Source of the DNA: Vicinamibacterales bacterium
Lineage (GTDB): Bacteria; Acidobacteriota; Vicinamibacteria; Vicinamibacterales; CAVVIG01
Reading direction: 5' to 3'
Assembly (NCBI GenBank): GCA_025450765.1
Contig: JANWLS010000002.1
Location: 1-33,789 of the forward strand
DNA length: 33,789 bases
The notes under the pieces are model-generated. The model was not told where the DNA came from. It did not search any database and saw only the letters and a list, made by a program, of their open reading frames with translations. Position 1 is the stretch's first letter, and the number at the start of each line of letters is the position of its first letter. Positions 1 through 15,190 of this stretch are shown one piece after another. A program made the position numbers and the translations under genes.

Positions 1-2114
1 GGCACAGGAGGCGGCTTGGGCGTGGCGCGGCGCGGCTCCAGCGAAAATCGCCGATCGGCCGCACGACCGGCCGCCAGGGCCTCGAACAATGGACCAAGGA
101 GGCCGTCGGCTTCGAGCGCGTAACACGTGAAGCGATCCGGCTGACGATGCGCGAGAATCGTGAAGAGGCTCTCCTCCGTTCCCATGAGCCCGGCCTCGAG
201 CGTGTCGTCGAGAAGCTGCGCGAAATCGCCGGCGACCCCGGCGATGGCCTCGGCGCGCCCACCGAAGAACCCGCCGCGCATCACGACGTCGGCGTCTTCC
301 ACGCCCGCGATCCGGGCGAGGTCGCGCCGGGGAAATCCGTGAATCTCCGCCGACTCGCGATACGGAAAGCCGGCCAACAGGAAATCGCCGGCCGCGTGCA
401 CCAGCTGCGCCGGGATGGCGCGATGCGTCAGGAGACCCTCCGGGACCGTGTGCGTCAAGCCGGCGTCGATCCAGAAGAGATGCGAGCTCTCGAACGGATT
501 CTCCGCGGCGGCGTCGTGCAGCCAGCGCATCTTCGACAGCACCAGCGGGTTGTACAGCGGGAGCTGCGCCTGCGGGCTTTCGGCCAGCCAGGAGGCCTGG
601 TCCCGCCATGCACCGCGCTCGCGAATCGCTTGGACGCGACCGAACCAGGGGAGCGCCTCGAGCTCGGTCGCAGCCAGCGGGACCACTCGCGTATTGGCGG
701 GGCGACGATGGCGCCAGACCAGCGCTTCGTACTCCGCCGGCACGTGGATGATCATCGGAACATCGACCTGCAGGAGGCGAACGAACAGCCGCAGGTAATG
801 CGCCGCGAACGAGCGCGCGAAGGATGGTGCGAGCTGGTCCCGGCCGATGTCGAGCAGCGCGGTGACGAACGTGACGTCGGGATCGAGCGCGAGCGTCGGT
901 CCCTGCAGCTTCTCGAGCCACGTGCGGCTTTCGCTGTATGGCCAGACGGTCCACGACACCGGGTCACGCTCGGATTCGAACGACCGGCGGATCAGCGCCG
1001 TCGGGCCCTCCGCCGCCATGAGCGCGCGCACCTCCTCTCGATCGACATCCAGCCGGTACACCTCCTGATCGGCGGCGTCATGGAATCCGACATACCAGAA
1101 CAGATAGTCGTCGATGTCCGCCGGCAGACCCGCTTTCTCGACGCCAATCTCAATCTCATACCTGCCGATCCGATCGGCCCAATCGGGAGGGAGCGGTGGA
1201 TTCGGCGGCTCGAGAAATCGTCGCGTATAGTCGGTCGTCCGCTGCCGTCGAAAGCTGACGCCAGCGTAAGCCTCGTACTCGGCGGCCGTCCGCGCGCGGC
1301 CGCAGCCGAAGCGACCGATGAACGGCTCGGCCAGAAAGGACTGAACCCGGTCCAGGCTGGCGCGGTCCCGCGTGTGCCACTCGACGGCGATGCCGTTCGC
1401 CTTCACGTGGTCGCCCCAGTGCTTGTGCGGCCTGTAATCGCGCGTGTATTCGTGCCAGACCAGGATCTCCGTGGGATGGAAGAGATCGTATCCGTGCGTG
1501 AACGCGCGCACGGCCAGCGTGATCTCCTCGCCGATGAAATAGAGCTCCGGATCGTAAGGCACGTCGGCCACGAAGGACCCTGGCGCGAACAGGAAGTGCG
1601 CCGAGAGAAACCTGGCCCGCACCGGCGTCGCCCGGTGCCGCCAGTCCGCGATCGCGCCGGGACGGAACAGGATGATGCCCTCAGGCGTGAACCGATCGAA
1701 GTTCATCTGCATCGGCTCGTCGCCAAACGAGTCGGGCCGGTCCGGATGGAAGGGGGTGGCGTAGGCGGTGAGAATGGGCCTGGCGCTCCCCGTCCGTGCC
1801 GCCTGGGCCATCGCCTTGACATCCCAGTCCTGCGCAAAACGGTGGTGGGAGTCGATCTGGAGAAACCACTCCTCGCCCGCGAACCGCTTCATGATTTCCG
1901 CGCGCGCCCAGCAGGCGCCGCGGCTCTCCTGCCAGTCCACGTCGATGATCTGAAATCGCGGATCAGCGGCGAAGGGCAGAGGTCCTTCTTCAGGGCCGTG
2001 CTGCCAACAGATGCCGAAGCGAAGATCTTCCGGGTGCGCCGCCTTTGCCAGGCAGTCCGCGATGGTGGGAACGAGCTGAGGGTCCCGGTATGCAGCGATG
2101 GAAACGAAGATCAC
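1..2114 (-). CDS. GT60-type (GlcNAc) glycosyltransferase fused to HtrL/WlaTC-like domain; 3' end truncated by window edge
   Basis: Own reverse-strand translation from GTG at 2114: VIFVSIAAYRDPQLVPTIADCLAKAAHPEDLRFGICWQHGPEE...IIDVDWQESRGACWARAEIMKRFAGEEWFLQIDSHHRFAQDWD... (GlcNAc/GT60 pattern), then C-terminal TFVTALLDIGR...PQAQLPLYNPLVLSKMRW...HLFWIDAGL (HtrL/WlaTC-like). Open to window edge, so absent from the ORF track. GTG overlaps the TGA of the upstream gene (GTGA). Confidence 0.82.
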   Translation of the reverse strand, partial: MIFVSIAAYRDPQLVPTIADCLAKAAHPEDLRFGICWQHGPEEGPLPFAADPRFQIIDVDWQESRGACWARAEIMKRFAGEEWFLQIDSHHRFAQDWDVKAMAQAARTGSARPILTAYATPFHPDRPDSFGDEPMQMNFDRFTPEGIILFRPGAIADWRHRATPVRARFLSAHFLFAPGSFVADVPYDPELYFIGEEITLAVRAFTHGYDLFHPTEILVWHEYTRDYRPHKHWGDHVKANGIAVEWHTRDRASLDRVQSFLAEPFIGRFGCGRARTAAEYEAYAGVSFRRQRTTDYTRRFLEPPNPPLPPDWADRIGRYEIEIGVEKAGLPADIDDYLFWYVGFHDAADQEVYRLDVDREEVRALMAAEGPTALIRRSFESERDPVSWTVWPYSESRTWLEKLQGPTLALDPDVTFVTALLDIGRDQLAPSFARSFAAHYLRLFVRLLQVDVPMIIHVPAEYEALVWRHRRPANTRVVPLAATELEALPWFGRVQAIRERGAWRDQASWLAESPQAQLPLYNPLVLSKMRWLHDAAAENPFESSHLFWIDAGLTHTVPEGLLTHRAIPAQLVHAAGDFLLAGFPYRESAEIHGFPRRDLARIAGVEDADVVMRGGFFGGRAEAIAGVAGDFAQLLDDTLEAGLMGTEESLFTILAHRQPDRFTCYALEADGLLGPLFEALAAGRAADRRFSLEPRRATPKPPPV

Positions 2115-3652
2115 CGTCCGGACCGATTGTCCCCTGAGCGCCCGCGGTCGTCGCGATCATGGTCGTGGTCGCCATCGCCGCCCCGGTGATCGTCGTCGCG
2201 GTCGTGCCCTTTCTCGCGATGCCGCCGATGGTCGGGCGGGTGCGACGGATGCGGGGGATGCGACGGGTGCGGATGCCGCCGGCTTGACGGGGACGGCGCC
2301 GGCGTGGGCGTCGGAGTCGGCACGGGTGTTGGCGTCGGTGACGGCTGGCTCGTCGCGCTCGGCGTCGGTGTCGGCAACGGCGTCGGCGTGATCGTCGGTG
2401 TCGGCGTCGACGACGCGCTCATCGTCGGCGTGGGCGTGAACGTGGCTGAAGGCGACGGTGACGGCGTGTTGGTCGACGAGGGGAGCGGCGTCGGCGTGAG
2501 GTTCAGCACCGGCGTGGGCGTCGGCGTGAACGAGCCCGCGGGCGTCGGGGTATTCGTCATCGAGAAGGCCGGCGTGCTCGACGCGGAGAGCTCCGGCAGC
2601 GGCGTACTCGAAGGCGATGGCATCGGCGCGTGCGTCGATGACGCCGTCGGCGGGACCGGCGTGGCTGAAGCCGACGGCATCGGCGTTGCGGGAAGTGAGA
2701 GGGCTGGCGTGGCCGAGACCGAGGCCTCCGGAAAGCTGCCGCCTGGGGTGATCAGCGGGAGCATGGCCGCCAGCAGCGGCGTGTCCGGAGCCGCCGTGCT
2801 GAACCGGAGCTGCGGCCACGTCTTCTGATCCTGAGCGCCCTGAGTCGAGAGGTACTCGACGGTGCCGCCGTAATTCGCCTCGAACCCCGGAGACGACGGC
2901 CCGCCGCCGGTCGGCGCTTCCTGATCGCCCTTCAGCAGCCAGCCCGAACAACCCGCCAGCACGTCGGCCGTCACGTCCCAGGCGACTTCGCCCGACATCT
3001 GGTTGACGTGGAGAGCGCCGCCACTCGACGCGGCGCCGAAGCGGCCGCCCGACCAGGCTCCGGCGAGCGGGTCGGCTGAATCGTCGGCGCACTCGCTGTC
3101 GGCCGGGGAGCCCCAGGTCGCGCCGGCGCCGCGCGCCCGGCGCTGCATGCTGCCAGGCAGCGCCAACTGCGCACCGTTGCCTTCGACGAAATCGTCCAAC
3201 AGCGGATGGCACGACACCGTGCGATTGTCGAGCTGGCCCCAGTCGTTATGATTCGCGGAAATGGTCAGGACGAGCTGAACGGACCGGATGTCAGCCGTCA
3301 GTGCTCGATAGACCAGGGCCGGATCGAATCGCAGCACGGCTCGCGTCGTCGGCTCGACGCCCACACGAAGCACGGGGCTTCCGCCTTCGTTCGTGTTGGG
3401 TGCGTCGGCGCGCAAGGTACTGTCGCCGCTGGCGAGGACAATGGCCGACACGCCCCTCAGCGAGGGAACCGTGGCAGACGGCGTCGGGGGTGGCTGGTCG
3501 GCAGGCGTGGACGAGGGCGCTTGCGCGTGCAGGCTGTCCTCGAGCGGACCGATGGCAGCCGCCGCGATGGTGCCTCCGGCCAAGCGCCGCACGAACGTCC
3601 GTCGAGAAACACCAGGAACGGTAGACGGGAGATCAGGGTTGTCGTGGTCCAT
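2111..3652 (-). CDS. Tat-exported protein with DNRLRE/CBM96-like domain, long Thr/Pro/Ser-rich (mucin-like) region and His/Asp/Arg-rich C-terminal tail
   Basis: 513 aa ORF; twin-arginine motif SRRTFVRRLAGG followed by hydrophobic stretch; 'ASGDSTLRADAPNTNEGGSPVLRVG...RAVLRFD' resembles DNRLRE/CBM96-type modules; about 150 aa of TPTP/SSTP repeats; tail HPHPSHPPHPSHPPDHRRHREKGHDRDDDHRGGDGDHDHD. Confidence 0.8.
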   Translation of the reverse strand: MDHDNPDLPSTVPGVSRRTFVRRLAGGTIAAAAIGPLEDSLHAQAPSSTPADQPPPTPSATVPSLRGVSAIVLASGDSTLRADAPNTNEGGSPVLRVGVEPTTRAVLRFDPALVYRALTADIRSVQLVLTISANHNDWGQLDNRTVSCHPLLDDFVEGNGAQLALPGSMQRRARGAGATWGSPADSECADDSADPLAGAWSGGRFGAASSGGALHVNQMSGEVAWDVTADVLAGCSGWLLKGDQEAPTGGGPSSPGFEANYGGTVEYLSTQGAQDQKTWPQLRFSTAAPDTPLLAAMLPLITPGGSFPEASVSATPALSLPATPMPSASATPVPPTASSTHAPMPSPSSTPLPELSASSTPAFSMTNTPTPAGSFTPTPTPVLNLTPTPLPSSTNTPSPSPSATFTPTPTMSASSTPTPTITPTPLPTPTPSATSQPSPTPTPVPTPTPTPAPSPSSRRHPHPSHPPHPSHPPDHRRHREKGHDRDDDHRGGDGDHDHDRDDRGRSGDNRSGR

Positions 3653-3681
3653 AGCCGCTCTCGGAGCGGTACAGCGTGGAC

Positions 3682-3710
3682 AGCCTACTCAGTGCCGCTC
3701 GCCCTGTCAA
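3682..3710 (-). promoter_or_regulatory. sigma70-like promoter for the mucin-like protein/GT60 operon
   Basis: On the minus strand: TTGACA (3710-3705) - 17 bp - TAGGCT (3687-3682), 30 bp upstream of ATG at 3652; -35 box overlaps the end of greB. Confidence 0.5.
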
Positions 3711-4318
3711 ACGCCGCCGGTGTTCGTCGGAGCCTTGCCGGCCGATTCCGCGCCGGGAGGCTCGCGGAACGGCGCCACGGGAATGGACTCGTACCGCACG
3801 TCCAGGATCTCGAGCCGATCGACCTTGCCCGGCGCCCGAAGGAGCACGCGGTCGCCTGCGCCCGCCTTCATGAGCGCCCGCGCAAGCGGCGACACCCAGC
3901 TGATGTGCCGTCGATCGAGGTCCACCTCGTCGGTGCCGACGATGCAGACTTCGTGCGCCGCGCCGGACCCGTCGGCATAGCGCACCGTCGCACCAAAGAA
4001 GATGCGTGACGCCGCGGCGGCGGGTCTCGGCGCCTCAGGATTCACCACGACGGCCGCATCGATACGCTTCGTGAGGAATCGAATGCGGCTGTCGATCTGG
4101 CGCAGCCGCCGCTTGGCATATTGATAGTCGGCGTTCTCGCTGCGGTCGCCGTTGCTGGCGGCCCACGTCACCACGGCCGTCACCGCCGGCCGCTCCCGGC
4201 TGAGCAAAAAGCGGTGCTCGTCCTTCAGCCGCTGCAGGCCGCCAGGAGTAATGTAGTTCTTCCGCTGCGGACCCGGCGGCTCCCGCTTCGGTTGCCTGCT
4301 GCCGGCTCGAAACGCCAT
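3707..4318 (-). CDS. greB: transcription elongation factor GreB-like
   Basis: NYITPGGLQRLKDEHRFLL...NGDRSENADYQYAKRRLRQIDSRIRFLTKRID...SWVSPLARALMKAGAGD: Gre coiled-coil and FKBP-like C domain. Confidence 0.88.
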   Translation of the reverse strand: MAFRAGSRQPKREPPGPQRKNYITPGGLQRLKDEHRFLLSRERPAVTAVVTWAASNGDRSENADYQYAKRRLRQIDSRIRFLTKRIDAAVVVNPEAPRPAAAASRIFFGATVRYADGSGAAHEVCIVGTDEVDLDRRHISWVSPLARALMKAGAGDRVLLRAPGKVDRLEILDVRYESIPVAPFREPPGAESAGKAPTNTGGV

Positions 4319-4424
4319 CGTCGGTATTCTAGGCGAACGGCCTCGGCTGCCTCGCGGCAGTTGGGGTACGCTAAGAGGATTGGTTGGACCGGGTTGGCAT
4401 CATTCAGCAGCTTCAGAGGACATC

Positions 4425-5999
4425 ATGACCAGGGTGGCGGAACCAGCAGACATGCTCGACGCGCTCGGCATCGCGCAGACGAACGCCGGCGGATTTTGCG
4501 GTGAATGGATCGGCAGCGGGACCGAGATGGGCGTCCTCACGCCGGTCGATGGCTCCCCGATCGCACGGGTGCGGCAGGTCACCGAACAGGAATACGACCG
4601 CATCGTCAGCCGCGCGCACGAGGCCTTTCTGCACTGGCGCACCGTGCCGGCGCCGCAGCGCGGCGAGTTGGTCCGCCGTCTCGGCGAGCGGCTGCGTGCG
4701 CTGAAGGCTCCGCTCGGCGCCCTCGTGACGTTGGAGATGGGAAAGATCACCGCCGAAGGCCTTGGCGAAGTACAGGAGATGATCGACATCTGCGACTTCG
4801 CGACCGGGCTCTCGCGGCAGCTCTATGGCCTGACGATGTCGTCGGAGCGGCCCGATCATCGGATGTACGAGCAGTGGCAGCCACTCGGAGTCGTCGGGGT
4901 GATCAGCGCGTTCAACTTCCCCGTGGCCGTGTGGAGCTGGAATGCCGCGATCGCAGCGGTGTGCGGCGACGCCGTGGTCTGGAAGCCGGCGAGCAAGACG
5001 CCGCTGACGGCGATCGCCGTGACGAAGATTGCGGCGCACGTGTGTACGGAGATGGGCGTCGACTCGGCGATCTTCTCGCTCGTGGTCGGTCCCGGATCGA
5101 CCGTCGGCGAGCGGTTGATCCGCGATCAGCGGATTCCGCTCGTGTCGTGCACCGGCAGCAGCGAGGTGGGCCGCCACGTGGCGGAGGTCGTGGCCGGGCG
5201 GTTCGGCCGGACCATCCTCGAGCTCGGCGGGAACAACGCCATCGTGGTCACGCCCTCGGCAAACCTCGACCTGGCCCTGCCCGCAATCCTCTTCGGCGCC
5301 GTCGGCACCGCCGGCCAGCGCTGCACGAGCACTCGGCGGATCATCGTGCACGAGTCCGTCAAGGACGAGCTCGTCCGCCGCTTGCGGCGGGCGTACGCCG
5401 ACGTCGCCATTGGGGATCCGCGGCAGGCGCGGACGTTGATGGGCCCGCTCGTCACGAAGAAGTCCGTCGAGGACATGCAGCAGGCGATCGCGGCCATCAA
5501 GAAGCAGGGGGGCGAGATCCTGTACGGCGGCGAGCCGCTCGATGGCGCCGAACACCCGGGCGGGCATTACGTCCGGCCGTGCATCGCAGCCGTCCGGAAC
5601 GAGATGGAGATCGTGCAGACGGAAACATTCGCGCCGATCCTCTACATCATCGGGTACGGATCGGCGTCGGCATCACCGAAGCAGGCCGTGGCGGAGCTGG
5701 ACGACGCCGTGCGGCTGCACAACGACGTGCCGCAGGGGCTGTCGTCGGCCATCTTCACCGATCACGTGCGCGAGGCCGAGCGCTTCCTCTCGTCGCGGGG
5801 CAGCGATTGCGGCATCGCGAACGTGAACATCGGGACGAGCGGCGCGGAGATCGGCGGCGCCTTCGGCGGGGAGAAGGAGACGGGCGGCGGCCGCGAATCA
5901 GGTTCGGACGCCTGGAAGGCCTACATGCGCCGCCAGACGAACACGATCAACTGGAGCACCGAGCTGCCGCTCGCGCAGGGGATCAAGTTCGGGGAGTAA
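4425..5999 (+). CDS. aldehyde dehydrogenase family protein, ALDH7 (aminoadipic semialdehyde dehydrogenase)-like
   Basis: FNFPVAVWSWNAAIAAVCGDAVVWKPASKTPLT, ELGGNNAIVV, GTAGQRCTSTRR, ETFAPILYI; ALDH7-like GGEKETGGGRESGSDAWKAYMRRQTNTINW. Start at 4425 preferred over 4380 (AGAGGA upstream). Confidence 0.9.
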   Translation: MTRVAEPADMLDALGIAQTNAGGFCGEWIGSGTEMGVLTPVDGSPIARVRQVTEQEYDRIVSRAHEAFLHWRTVPAPQRGELVRRLGERLRALKAPLGALVTLEMGKITAEGLGEVQEMIDICDFATGLSRQLYGLTMSSERPDHRMYEQWQPLGVVGVISAFNFPVAVWSWNAAIAAVCGDAVVWKPASKTPLTAIAVTKIAAHVCTEMGVDSAIFSLVVGPGSTVGERLIRDQRIPLVSCTGSSEVGRHVAEVVAGRFGRTILELGGNNAIVVTPSANLDLALPAILFGAVGTAGQRCTSTRRIIVHESVKDELVRRLRRAYADVAIGDPRQARTLMGPLVTKKSVEDMQQAIAAIKKQGGEILYGGEPLDGAEHPGGHYVRPCIAAVRNEMEIVQTETFAPILYIIGYGSASASPKQAVAELDDAVRLHNDVPQGLSSAIFTDHVREAERFLSSRGSDCGIANVNIGTSGAEIGGAFGGEKETGGGRESGSDAWKAYMRRQTNTINWSTELPLAQGIKFGE

Positions 6000-13621: not shown

Positions 13622-15190
13622 TCACATCCAGTTCTTCGTGGTCGGCCACACCGCCGCCAGCGGCCTCTTCAGTCCGCGACAGAGGAATATCGACCGATTC
13701 TCGTACGGCATCGCCAGCGGGTCGTGGGTGCGGGCGGCGACGATGGCTGAGCTGAATTCCTGCTGAAGCTTTGCGAGCGAGTCGTCGCTGTCAATGACGA
13801 TCATGACCTCGCCCGTGTATCCGCGCGGGCCCCAGAAGAAATAGTTCTGATGACCGCTGATGGCGTGCGGCAGGCCATAGGCCGCACCGAGGACGTCAAC
13901 GGCGGCAGCCTCCCCGTAGTTGCTGCCGTAGATCGCCGCCTTCTCGCGATCGACGGGAGACAGGCTGTCATACACCTGCGCGACGCGAGCCACCATCGCC
14001 GACCACCCGAACCGATCCGCGAAGAACTGCGGCAGCGGTCCACTGCCCTGCGTCTCGGTGTTCGTGCTGTTGAGGTGGAGAGCCCGCGTGTAGCGGATCC
14101 AGGCCTGCGGCGCGAGCACAGGAATCGCCATCGGAAGCGTGAGCGCGCCCGCGATCGCGAGCACGACGCACCAGGCGGGCAGCAGCCAGCGCGTTCTGCG
14201 GGATCCCGCGAATGCGTGCTCCCAGGCCAACGCGCCGGCCGCGAACAACACGGGATAGATCGGCGCCAGGTAGTAATCCTTCGCGTGAAGGTGCATCATC
14301 AGCGCGAGGAACACCAGGTAGGCCACCCCGATCCAGAGAAAGCGCCTGGCGTCGCGCGCGGCGAACAGCCAGACCAGCCCGGGCAGCAGCAGGAAGATGC
14401 TGAGCGGATGCAGCATCAGGATCTGCGCGCCGACGAACGGCAACGGCGCCAGCACGACATTCTTCTGGCTCTGACGGACGTTGTTCAGCCACTCCAGCGT
14501 CGGCCAGTGGTGCTGGAGCTGCCAGAGGCCGTACGGCAGGACGAGGAGCGCCATCAATCCGCCAGCGACCAGCACCCAGCGGCTCCACAACAGCCGGCGC
14601 TGAGGCGTGATGAGAAGCCCGATCACCAGGGCCGCCAGGAAAAAGACCGCCGACGGCTTGTTCAGGATGCCGAGGCCGCCGCAGAGCCCGACGACCAGCC
14701 ACCACCGTGGACTGGCGCCGCGCACCATCAGCATCACGGCGAGCAGAGCGCCCATCCAGAAGACCGGCTCGAAGGCATTCATCGAGAGATAACTGTCGAT
14801 GCCGAGATAGACCGGTGCGATGAGCACGGCGACCATCGCCAGGATCTGCGCCGGGCGCCGCCCTCCGAGCCCCCACACGAGAAGGCCGGTCAGCAGGATC
14901 TTGATCCCTCCCGCGACGGCGGCCGTCAGGCGGAAGAGCGCCAGATCATGAAAGCCGAAAAGCGCGGTGGCGAGGCGGGCCTGCACCGCGACGAGCGGCG
15001 CCTGGTCGACGTAGCCCCACGCGAGGTGCCGACCGCAGACAATGTAGTAGAGCTCGTCGCGGAAGATGCCGTAGCCGGCGTGCTGCGCGACGAGGTTGCC
15101 GAAGAATTCGACGCCGATCTTGACGGCGGCGAAGGCGAGCCCGAGCGCCAGGGCCGCCGTGACACGCTGATGCCGCTCGGCTATGCTCAT
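13622..15190 (-). CDS. glycosyltransferase family 39 (ArnT/PMT-like) membrane protein
   Basis: 522 aa, multi-TM; FRDELYYIVCGRHLAWGYVDQAPLVAVQARLATALFG typical N-terminal GT39 loop. Confidence 0.85.
   Translation of the reverse strand: MSIAERHQRVTAALALGLAFAAVKIGVEFFGNLVAQHAGYGIFRDELYYIVCGRHLAWGYVDQAPLVAVQARLATALFGFHDLALFRLTAAVAGGIKILLTGLLVWGLGGRRPAQILAMVAVLIAPVYLGIDSYLSMNAFEPVFWMGALLAVMLMVRGASPRWWLVVGLCGGLGILNKPSAVFFLAALVIGLLITPQRRLLWSRWVLVAGGLMALLVLPYGLWQLQHHWPTLEWLNNVRQSQKNVVLAPLPFVGAQILMLHPLSIFLLLPGLVWLFAARDARRFLWIGVAYLVFLALMMHLHAKDYYLAPIYPVLFAAGALAWEHAFAGSRRTRWLLPAWCVVLAIAGALTLPMAIPVLAPQAWIRYTRALHLNSTNTETQGSGPLPQFFADRFGWSAMVARVAQVYDSLSPVDREKAAIYGSNYGEAAAVDVLGAAYGLPHAISGHQNYFFWGPRGYTGEVMIVIDSDDSLAKLQQEFSSAIVAARTHDPLAMPYENRSIFLCRGLKRPLAAVWPTTKNWM

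Follow-up and report, generated by a model that had tools for sequence, protein, structure and literature searches.

What might a bacterium do with a pair of adjoining genes, one for a seemingly exported protein that carries a long threonine-, proline- and serine-rich (T/P/S-rich) tract and the other for a multi-domain glycosyltransferase (GT)? Such a pair lies at the very start of the 33,789-nucleotide stretch analysed here (the window), which is positions 1 to 33,789 of contig JANWLS010000002.1 from a Vicinamibacterales bacterium (assembly GCA_025450765.1). Comparison supports the answer that the locus is a dedicated cytoplasmic protein O-glycosylation cassette, in which a TP-rich substrate with a twin-arginine translocation (Tat) type signal would be encoded together with its own enzyme, and we hold this to be reasonably probable. 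It is favoured because of the architecture of the two genes, their conserved pairing, the linkage between GT60 and TP-rich genes in viral genomes, and the existence of phage relatives of every module of the enzyme. The features concerned are as follows.

2111..3652, minus strand: gene 1, 513 residues, with a Tat-type signal, a DNRLRE-like domain, a T/P/S-rich tract and a His/Asp/Arg-rich tail; the proposed glycosylation substrate.
3521..3652, minus strand: twin-arginine signal region of gene 1, residues 1-44, assigned by eye with an approximate end, SRRTFVRRLAGG.
3182..3424, minus strand: core match of the DNRLRE-like domain, residues 77-157, below the NF033679 cut-off.
2282..2749, minus strand: Thr/Pro/Ser-rich tract, residues 302-457; the proposed acceptor region.
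2111..2114, minus strand: GTGA, in which the stop of gene 1 overlaps the start of gene 2 (GTG 2114-2112, TGA 2113-2111).
3..2114, minus strand: the N-terminal 704 residues of gene 2, which is cut by the contig edge and in all likelihood carries on at the end of contig G000:C1.
1251..2111, minus strand: GT60 catalytic domain (PF11397) of gene 2, with DSH at residues 88-90 and the invariant His 221.
891..1187, minus strand: beta-rich, WTVWP-type domain after GT60, residues about 310-408, from the structure model.
60..884, minus strand: HtrL_YibB domain (PF09612), with approximate limits.
1..7: contig edge GGCACAG, identical to the final 7 bases of contig G000:C1.
L008:9078-10526, end of contig G000:C1: probable continuation of gene 2, with methyltransferase-like and GT-like domains.
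L008:8170-9084: separate HtrL gene behind the fused gene 2.

The original prediction of two adjoining genes was borne out, both open reading frames (ORFs) being confirmed together with the GTG start of gene 2 that overlaps the TGA of gene 1. The roughly 150-residue TPTP/SSTP repeat it described is a tract of 156 residues (35 T, 45 P and 30 S; 71% T+P+S) holding 27 TP dipeptides, and a search for the TPTPTP-coding DNA pattern, by which TP-rich content was assessed across the source genome, indicates that such coding is rare, with 2 of only 3 matches falling inside the tract. For the claimed Tat signal the case is mixed: an SRRxF-type twin-arginine motif, seen by eye, stands ahead of a hydrophobic stretch (VSRRTFVRRLAGGTIAAAAIG) and is kept as LSRRGFVQQLVGG in the ortholog of gene 1 in a genome from another family of the order (G088), but the curated Tat model TIGR01409 (NCBIfam) gives 13.1 bits, under its cut-off of 16.7, and so, with export assessed from sequence alone, "Tat-exported" is to be read as a prediction. 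Similarly the N-terminal part of gene 1 reaches 19.5 bits against NF033679 (DNRLRE), under the cut-off of 34, for which reason the label "DNRLRE-like" is used, although the G088 ortholog passes the same model at 41.3 bits. Surface proteins are known to contain such domains. The TTGACA-N17-TAGGCT promoter proposed ahead of gene 1 is not supported: its −10 box agrees at 3/6 positions and its TTGA coincides with the stop of a greA-like gene; a promoter scan of 3400-4500 returned no promoter-like site, and a sigma-70 promoter ahead of gene 1 was rejected. The GreA/GreB-like gene itself (3707-4318, minus strand) ends 54 bp ahead of gene 1 on the same strand, and no greA-like gene lies beside the cassette in G088.

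Gene 2 had been described as a GT60-HtrL fusion, the product of positions 1-2114. Both domains are indeed there, as the profile check shows with matches above curated cut-offs to PF11397 (E 6e-67, 227 bits, cut-off 21) and PF09612 (E 1.7e-9, 38.1 bits, cut-off 24.1), but the enzyme is longer, a four-part fusion GT60-HtrL-methyltransferase-GT-like. Base 1 of the window is the first base of its contig (C2) and the gene is cut there; when C1 and C2 are joined across the 7-bp GGCACAG overlap an in-frame open frame of 1,185 residues with zero stops is obtained. The ORF left open at the end of C1 matches the C-terminus of the G088 enzyme at 50% identity, and the joined frame matches this continuous, 1,196-residue ortholog over its full length (60% identity in the first part, 50% in the second). 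In G088 the domains follow the order GT60, HtrL, methyltransferase-like and GT-like, the third scoring 24.7 bits against PF13578, just under the cut-off of 26.3, and the last having an EDDM motif and zero Pfam matches. An AlphaFold model of the methyltransferase-GT module built from two sequences had a predicted local distance difference test (pLDDT) score of 42 and was not used. The YibB equivalog models score far under their cut-offs on the HtrL domain of gene 2, which is therefore a family relative and not YibB. Within the GT60 domain D88-S89-H90 (the DxH motif) and H221 do not vary among 11 aligned relatives, and the WTVWP-type beta-rich domain that follows is found also in solo and viral GT60 proteins.

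A fold comparison bears on what the GT60 domain may do. The AlphaFold2 model of the 704-residue part, which used 43 sequences, reaches a pLDDT of about 95 for most of residues 1-408 and is weaker in the HtrL part. Its 45 best matches in the PDB are all polypeptide N-acetylgalactosaminyltransferases (ppGalNAc transferases) from animals and Toxoplasma, with E from 1.9e-9, a TM score of about 0.3 across the whole 704-residue query and 12-16% identity. PDB sequence searches with the GT60 and with the methyltransferase-GT parts gave nothing useful and no GT27 entry, the fold search alone being informative, and at the level of sequence family gene 2 falls outside GT27, Pfam giving PF11397 only for its GT60 part. 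GT60 has been placed beside GT27, both having the DxH motif and acting on Ser/Thr of polypeptides (PMC7185993), and the GT60 domain may be viewed as a GT-A enzyme of the GT60/ppGalNAc transferase clade. "Mucin-type" is a word for a predicted function, one backed by the resemblance between the model and the ppGalNAc transferases.

The pairing of the two genes is conserved across families despite different outer flanks. When genomes of the order were searched with the first 704 residues, 2/162 had the enzyme, G088 holding the sole ortholog. The gene ahead of it (L007:10360-12303), 11 bp apart, encodes an SRRxF Tat-type signal, a DNRLRE domain and a tract of 141 residues that is 77% T/P/S, with fibronectin type III (fn3) domains at the C-terminus in place of the charged tail. 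G088 also has a separate HtrL gene, upstream of gene 1 and divergent, and apart from this HtrL paralog no other common genes were found between the two fetched neighbourhoods. Across wider ranks GT60 is sporadic (2/193 genomes of the class, 19/396 of the phylum), and a search for the methyltransferase-GT module in plasmids, 396 genomes of the phylum (G088 not in this sample) and 148 genomes of another phylum returned the source genome only, plus a partial methyltransferase-type match in G058.

It is in viral genomes that the association becomes frequent. Viral contigs contain at least 588 GT60 relatives, from which two samples of the loci most similar to the query, 160 loci in 117 clusters at 90% identity, were surveyed for T/P/S-rich ORFs (a 40-residue window with at least 60% T+P+S, gene calling being mechanical). 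Such an ORF lies within two genes of GT60 in 51/117 clusters, whereas random genes of the control loci have one that near in 4/106, and it stands directly upstream of GT60 on the same strand in 38/117, with gaps of 16-100 bp in the first sample. Within the viral GT60 loci themselves T/P/S-rich genes concentrate near GT60 (63/443 near, 33/874 far; Fisher 3e-11, and 3e-5 with 70% clusters). The first sample (80 loci) also holds HtrL in 44/80, HtrL-GT fusions in 33/80 and methyltransferases in 13/80, compared with 0/120 control loci, and both domains of the HtrL-GT fusions are related to those of the gene 2 enzyme. Among cultured jumbo phages, XacN1 and RAS14 each encode GT60, HtrL and HtrL-GT plus a protein of >3,100 residues with TPTP stretches (ORF325 in XacN1), whose gene lies about nine genes away in XacN1 and six in RAS14; Stenotrophomonas phage CM1 has GT60 and HtrL-GT. 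At least two glycoproteins are reported from the virions of XacN1, for which the phage's own glycosyltransferases including ORF334 were suggested as a possible cause (PMC5852040), and ORF334 is a GT60. A carbamoyltransferase (PF02543/PF16861) was seen in the phage GT60 clusters looked at (L073:8137-9723; XacN1 ORF333, L455:23792-26089, Pfam-confirmed), which suggests that these clusters make a carbamoylated glycan. Literature searches on phage Thr/Pro-rich virion glycosylation and on PF11397, of incomplete coverage, found no description of the GT60/TP-rich linkage.

The modules of the bacterial enzyme seem to differ in their affinities. Its GT60 domain groups with GT60s of Azospirillum, Sphingomonas, Eremiobacterota and Actinobacteria, a grouping that a fork support of 83/76 leaves tentative. 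The HtrL domain is nested in a clade of otherwise viral HtrL-GT proteins (94/97), and among the compared sequences the nearest relatives of the methyltransferase and GT domains outside G088 are viral; since the HtrL-GT comparison stopped short of bacteria at large, a phage-derived origin is a lead rather than a result. The closest system-level relatives of the enzyme are phage modules, and it resembles a phage-type virion-glycosylation module whose genes have been fused. More tentatively, and with rather less confidence than we place in the cassette itself, GT60-HtrL-methyltransferase-GT modules may make up a mucin-type O-glycosylation system that is widespread in phages and bacteria and acts first on TPTP tracts of virion and exported proteins. 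In the version at the present locus a phage-type extension module would have been combined with a bacterial GT60 into a single polypeptide and directed at a Tat substrate, the glycoprotein being finished in the cytoplasm before export.

How the cassette would work can be set out in three steps, the acceptor site, the sugar, the order of steps, the methylation and the export after glycosylation all being what we infer. The GT60 domain would add the first sugar, probably an alpha-linked N-acetylhexosamine, to Thr/Ser of the TPTP/SSTP tract in the cytoplasm. The glycan might then be lengthened by the fused HtrL, by the GT-like domain at the C-terminus and by the product of the separate HtrL gene, with the fused methyltransferase-like domain modifying it. 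Finally the folded and glycosylated gene 1 protein would, given its SRRxF signal, be exported by Tat. Elsewhere in the window, 10 kb from the cassette, a gene for a PMT_2-type (GT39-like) membrane glycosyltransferase (13622-15190, minus strand) may belong to an unrelated protein glycosylation route.

Several observations weigh against this scheme. The bacterial cassette is found in two genomes only, 66/117 viral GT60 clusters have no T/P/S-rich ORF within two genes, and the reverse link is weaker, GT60 being present in the fetched stretch of 5/77 TPTP-rich viral loci against 0/163 others. The C1-C2 join of gene 2 is deduced from the shared 7 bases, the open frame and the G088 match, and the last domain is called GT-like from its motif and position, its model being poor. 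Conserved adjacency to TP-rich proteins, which was predicted at the outset, holds for G088 and for the 51 viral clusters but fails for most solo bacterial GT60 genes, which have no TP-rich neighbour. In Azospirillum, Sphingomonas, Novosphingobium, Eremiobacterota and family f34 of the phylum a solo GT60 sits in contractile-injection-like loci, and that of Phyllobacterium adjoins an RTX-like protein and type I secretion system (T1SS) genes. The Granulicella-like GT60 is a single gene, which in most of these loci adjoins heptose/lipopolysaccharide (LPS) core genes. T/P/S-rich neighbours of low complexity occur in two more bacterial cases: in a Klebsiella plasmid the gene ahead of GT60 has such a linker (PTPTPSPTPTPTPTPEPTP), and in an Actinobacteria metagenome-assembled genome a T/P/S-rich ORF cut by the contig end (SSHSSSSHSGSS) overlaps the start of a GT60-GT60 fusion. 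A rule of TP-rich adjacency for all GT60 was rejected, given the Granulicella-like, extracellular contractile injection (eCIS) type, type VI secretion system (T6SS) and Phyllobacterium RTX/T1SS copies, as was the idea that every TPTP protein needs a GT60, given the 5/77 loci. As side observations, solo or tandem GT60 genes lie amid tail sheath, VgrG, PAAR, GPW/gp25 and DUF4157-like genes in L009, L010, L012-L015, L021, L022 and L024, where several other GTs carry the same C-terminal WTVWP-type domain, and in the plasmid T6SS clusters of Burkholderia and Paraburkholderia a "fimbrial protein" gene stands directly ahead of GT60 (L017:4930-7341, L036:5851-8371).

Could the enzyme instead build a cell-surface glycan (LPS, exopolysaccharide or a lipid-linked sugar), the TP-rich DNRLRE-like protein merely binding or spanning the glycan layer? 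The occurrence of DNRLRE-like domains in surface proteins fits this, as does the conserved slot of the Granulicella-like solo GT60s beside heptosyltransferase, hldE-like and hldD-like genes (at least most of L020, L023, L025-L030 and L032), and HtrL_YibB proteins are tied to lipooligosaccharide (LOS)/LPS loci (PMC4172580), a link that speaks against a protein acceptor. However the gene 2 model best matches polypeptide transferases, it is the pairing with the TP protein and not the outer flanks that is conserved, and GT60 is linked to TP-rich genes in phages, which have no LPS of their own; we regard a surface glycan as unlikely. Mere co-inheritance is a further reading, with the tract as an unglycosylated stalk and the adjacency owed to joint transfer or to a phage structural region rich in low complexity. 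TP tracts are common linkers, 72/77 TPTP-rich viral loci have no GT60 in the fetched stretch and the cassette is sporadic, yet T/P/S-rich genes concentrate near GT60 within the very same viral loci, and the tracts of the G088 and window proteins are both kept though their C-terminal parts differ, so that co-inheritance appears quite improbable.

Another possible acceptor, in place of Thr/Ser, is hydroxyproline, the residue used in the Skp1 Gnt1 pathway. Nature does link a hydroxylase-like domain to GT60, in an 875-residue protein of G1051 (Sphingomonadales, the order of Novosphingobium; L460:8045-10672, minus strand), which combines a 2-oxoglutarate-Fe(II) (2OG-Fe(II)) oxygenase of prolyl-4-hydroxylase-like type, GT60 and a tubulin-tyrosine-ligase-like ATP-grasp and so recalls the Skp1 hydroxyproline-GlcNAc (N-acetylglucosamine) pathway, and the tract is Pro-rich. 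But Thr and Ser are abundant in it, and no relative of the G1051-type hydroxylase domain was found near the cassette or in the bacterial or viral GT60 loci searched (a single-sequence query, which distant relatives could escape), making this a very improbable route. Initiation on Thr/Ser by a dedicated enzyme stays the reading preferred here.

If the cassette reading is true, mucin-like O-glycosylation by the GT60/GT27 clade would extend beyond eukaryotes, with phages and some bacteria having self-contained cassettes, and the four-module enzyme would be a candidate for producing O-glycoproteins in E. coli. Hundreds of phage GT60 genes, and HtrL_YibB, which Pfam still labels "unknown function", would also gain a function that can be tested, and the virion glycoproteins reported for XacN1 a set of candidate enzymes. 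Taken together, the phage and bacterial loci suggest a little-studied protein sugar-coating system, shared by both, that resembles the mucin coating of animals.

Among known systems the characterised GT60 enzymes (T. cruzi TcOGNT1; Dictyostelium Gnt2 and Skp1 Gnt1) have the Pfam family and the DxH motif in common with gene 2, for which a Thr/Ser-rich acceptor is likewise proposed; TcOGNT1 acts on mucin-like Thr-rich proteins, forming GlcNAc-alpha-O-Thr on mucins (PMC9472816). Unlike them, gene 2 is prokaryotic, has HtrL, methyltransferase-like and GT-like domains joined to its GT60 part and is encoded with its putative substrate, its acceptor and sugar being predicted. The ppGalNAc transferases (GT27), which start animal mucin-type O-glycosylation, are the best fold match and also have the DxH motif, whereas gene 2 is of a different family, at 12-16% identity in structural alignment, and has no recognised ricin-type lectin domain.

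At the level of the locus, serine-rich repeat protein (SRRP) loci of streptococci and staphylococci place a secreted repeat protein beside dedicated glycosyltransferases, multi-domain ones among them, that act in the cytoplasm before export. The window and G088 likewise encode a repeat-rich protein with an export signal beside a glycosyltransferase, of predicted function, but with a Tat-type signal where the SRRP loci use accessory Sec, a Thr/Pro tract, and GT60/HtrL where those loci have GtfA/GtfB (no search aimed at Gtf or SecA2 was made); the enzyme found being GT60/HtrL, the cassette would at most work like an SRRP locus. In the phage loci (XacN1, RAS14, CM1 and IMG/VR contigs) related GT60, HtrL, HtrL-GT, methyltransferase and carbamoyltransferase modules are clustered, often beside TPTP-rich genes, and their HtrL and GT-like modules are about 40% identical to the bacterial counterparts. 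The phages looked at have a carbamoyltransferase, of which none was seen in the bacterial cassette, and their partner protein, which presumably belongs to the virion, lacks a Tat signal, whereas the bacterial partner has a Tat-type signal; and what the phages encode as separate GT60, HtrL-GT and methyltransferase genes is in the bacterial cassette a single fusion.

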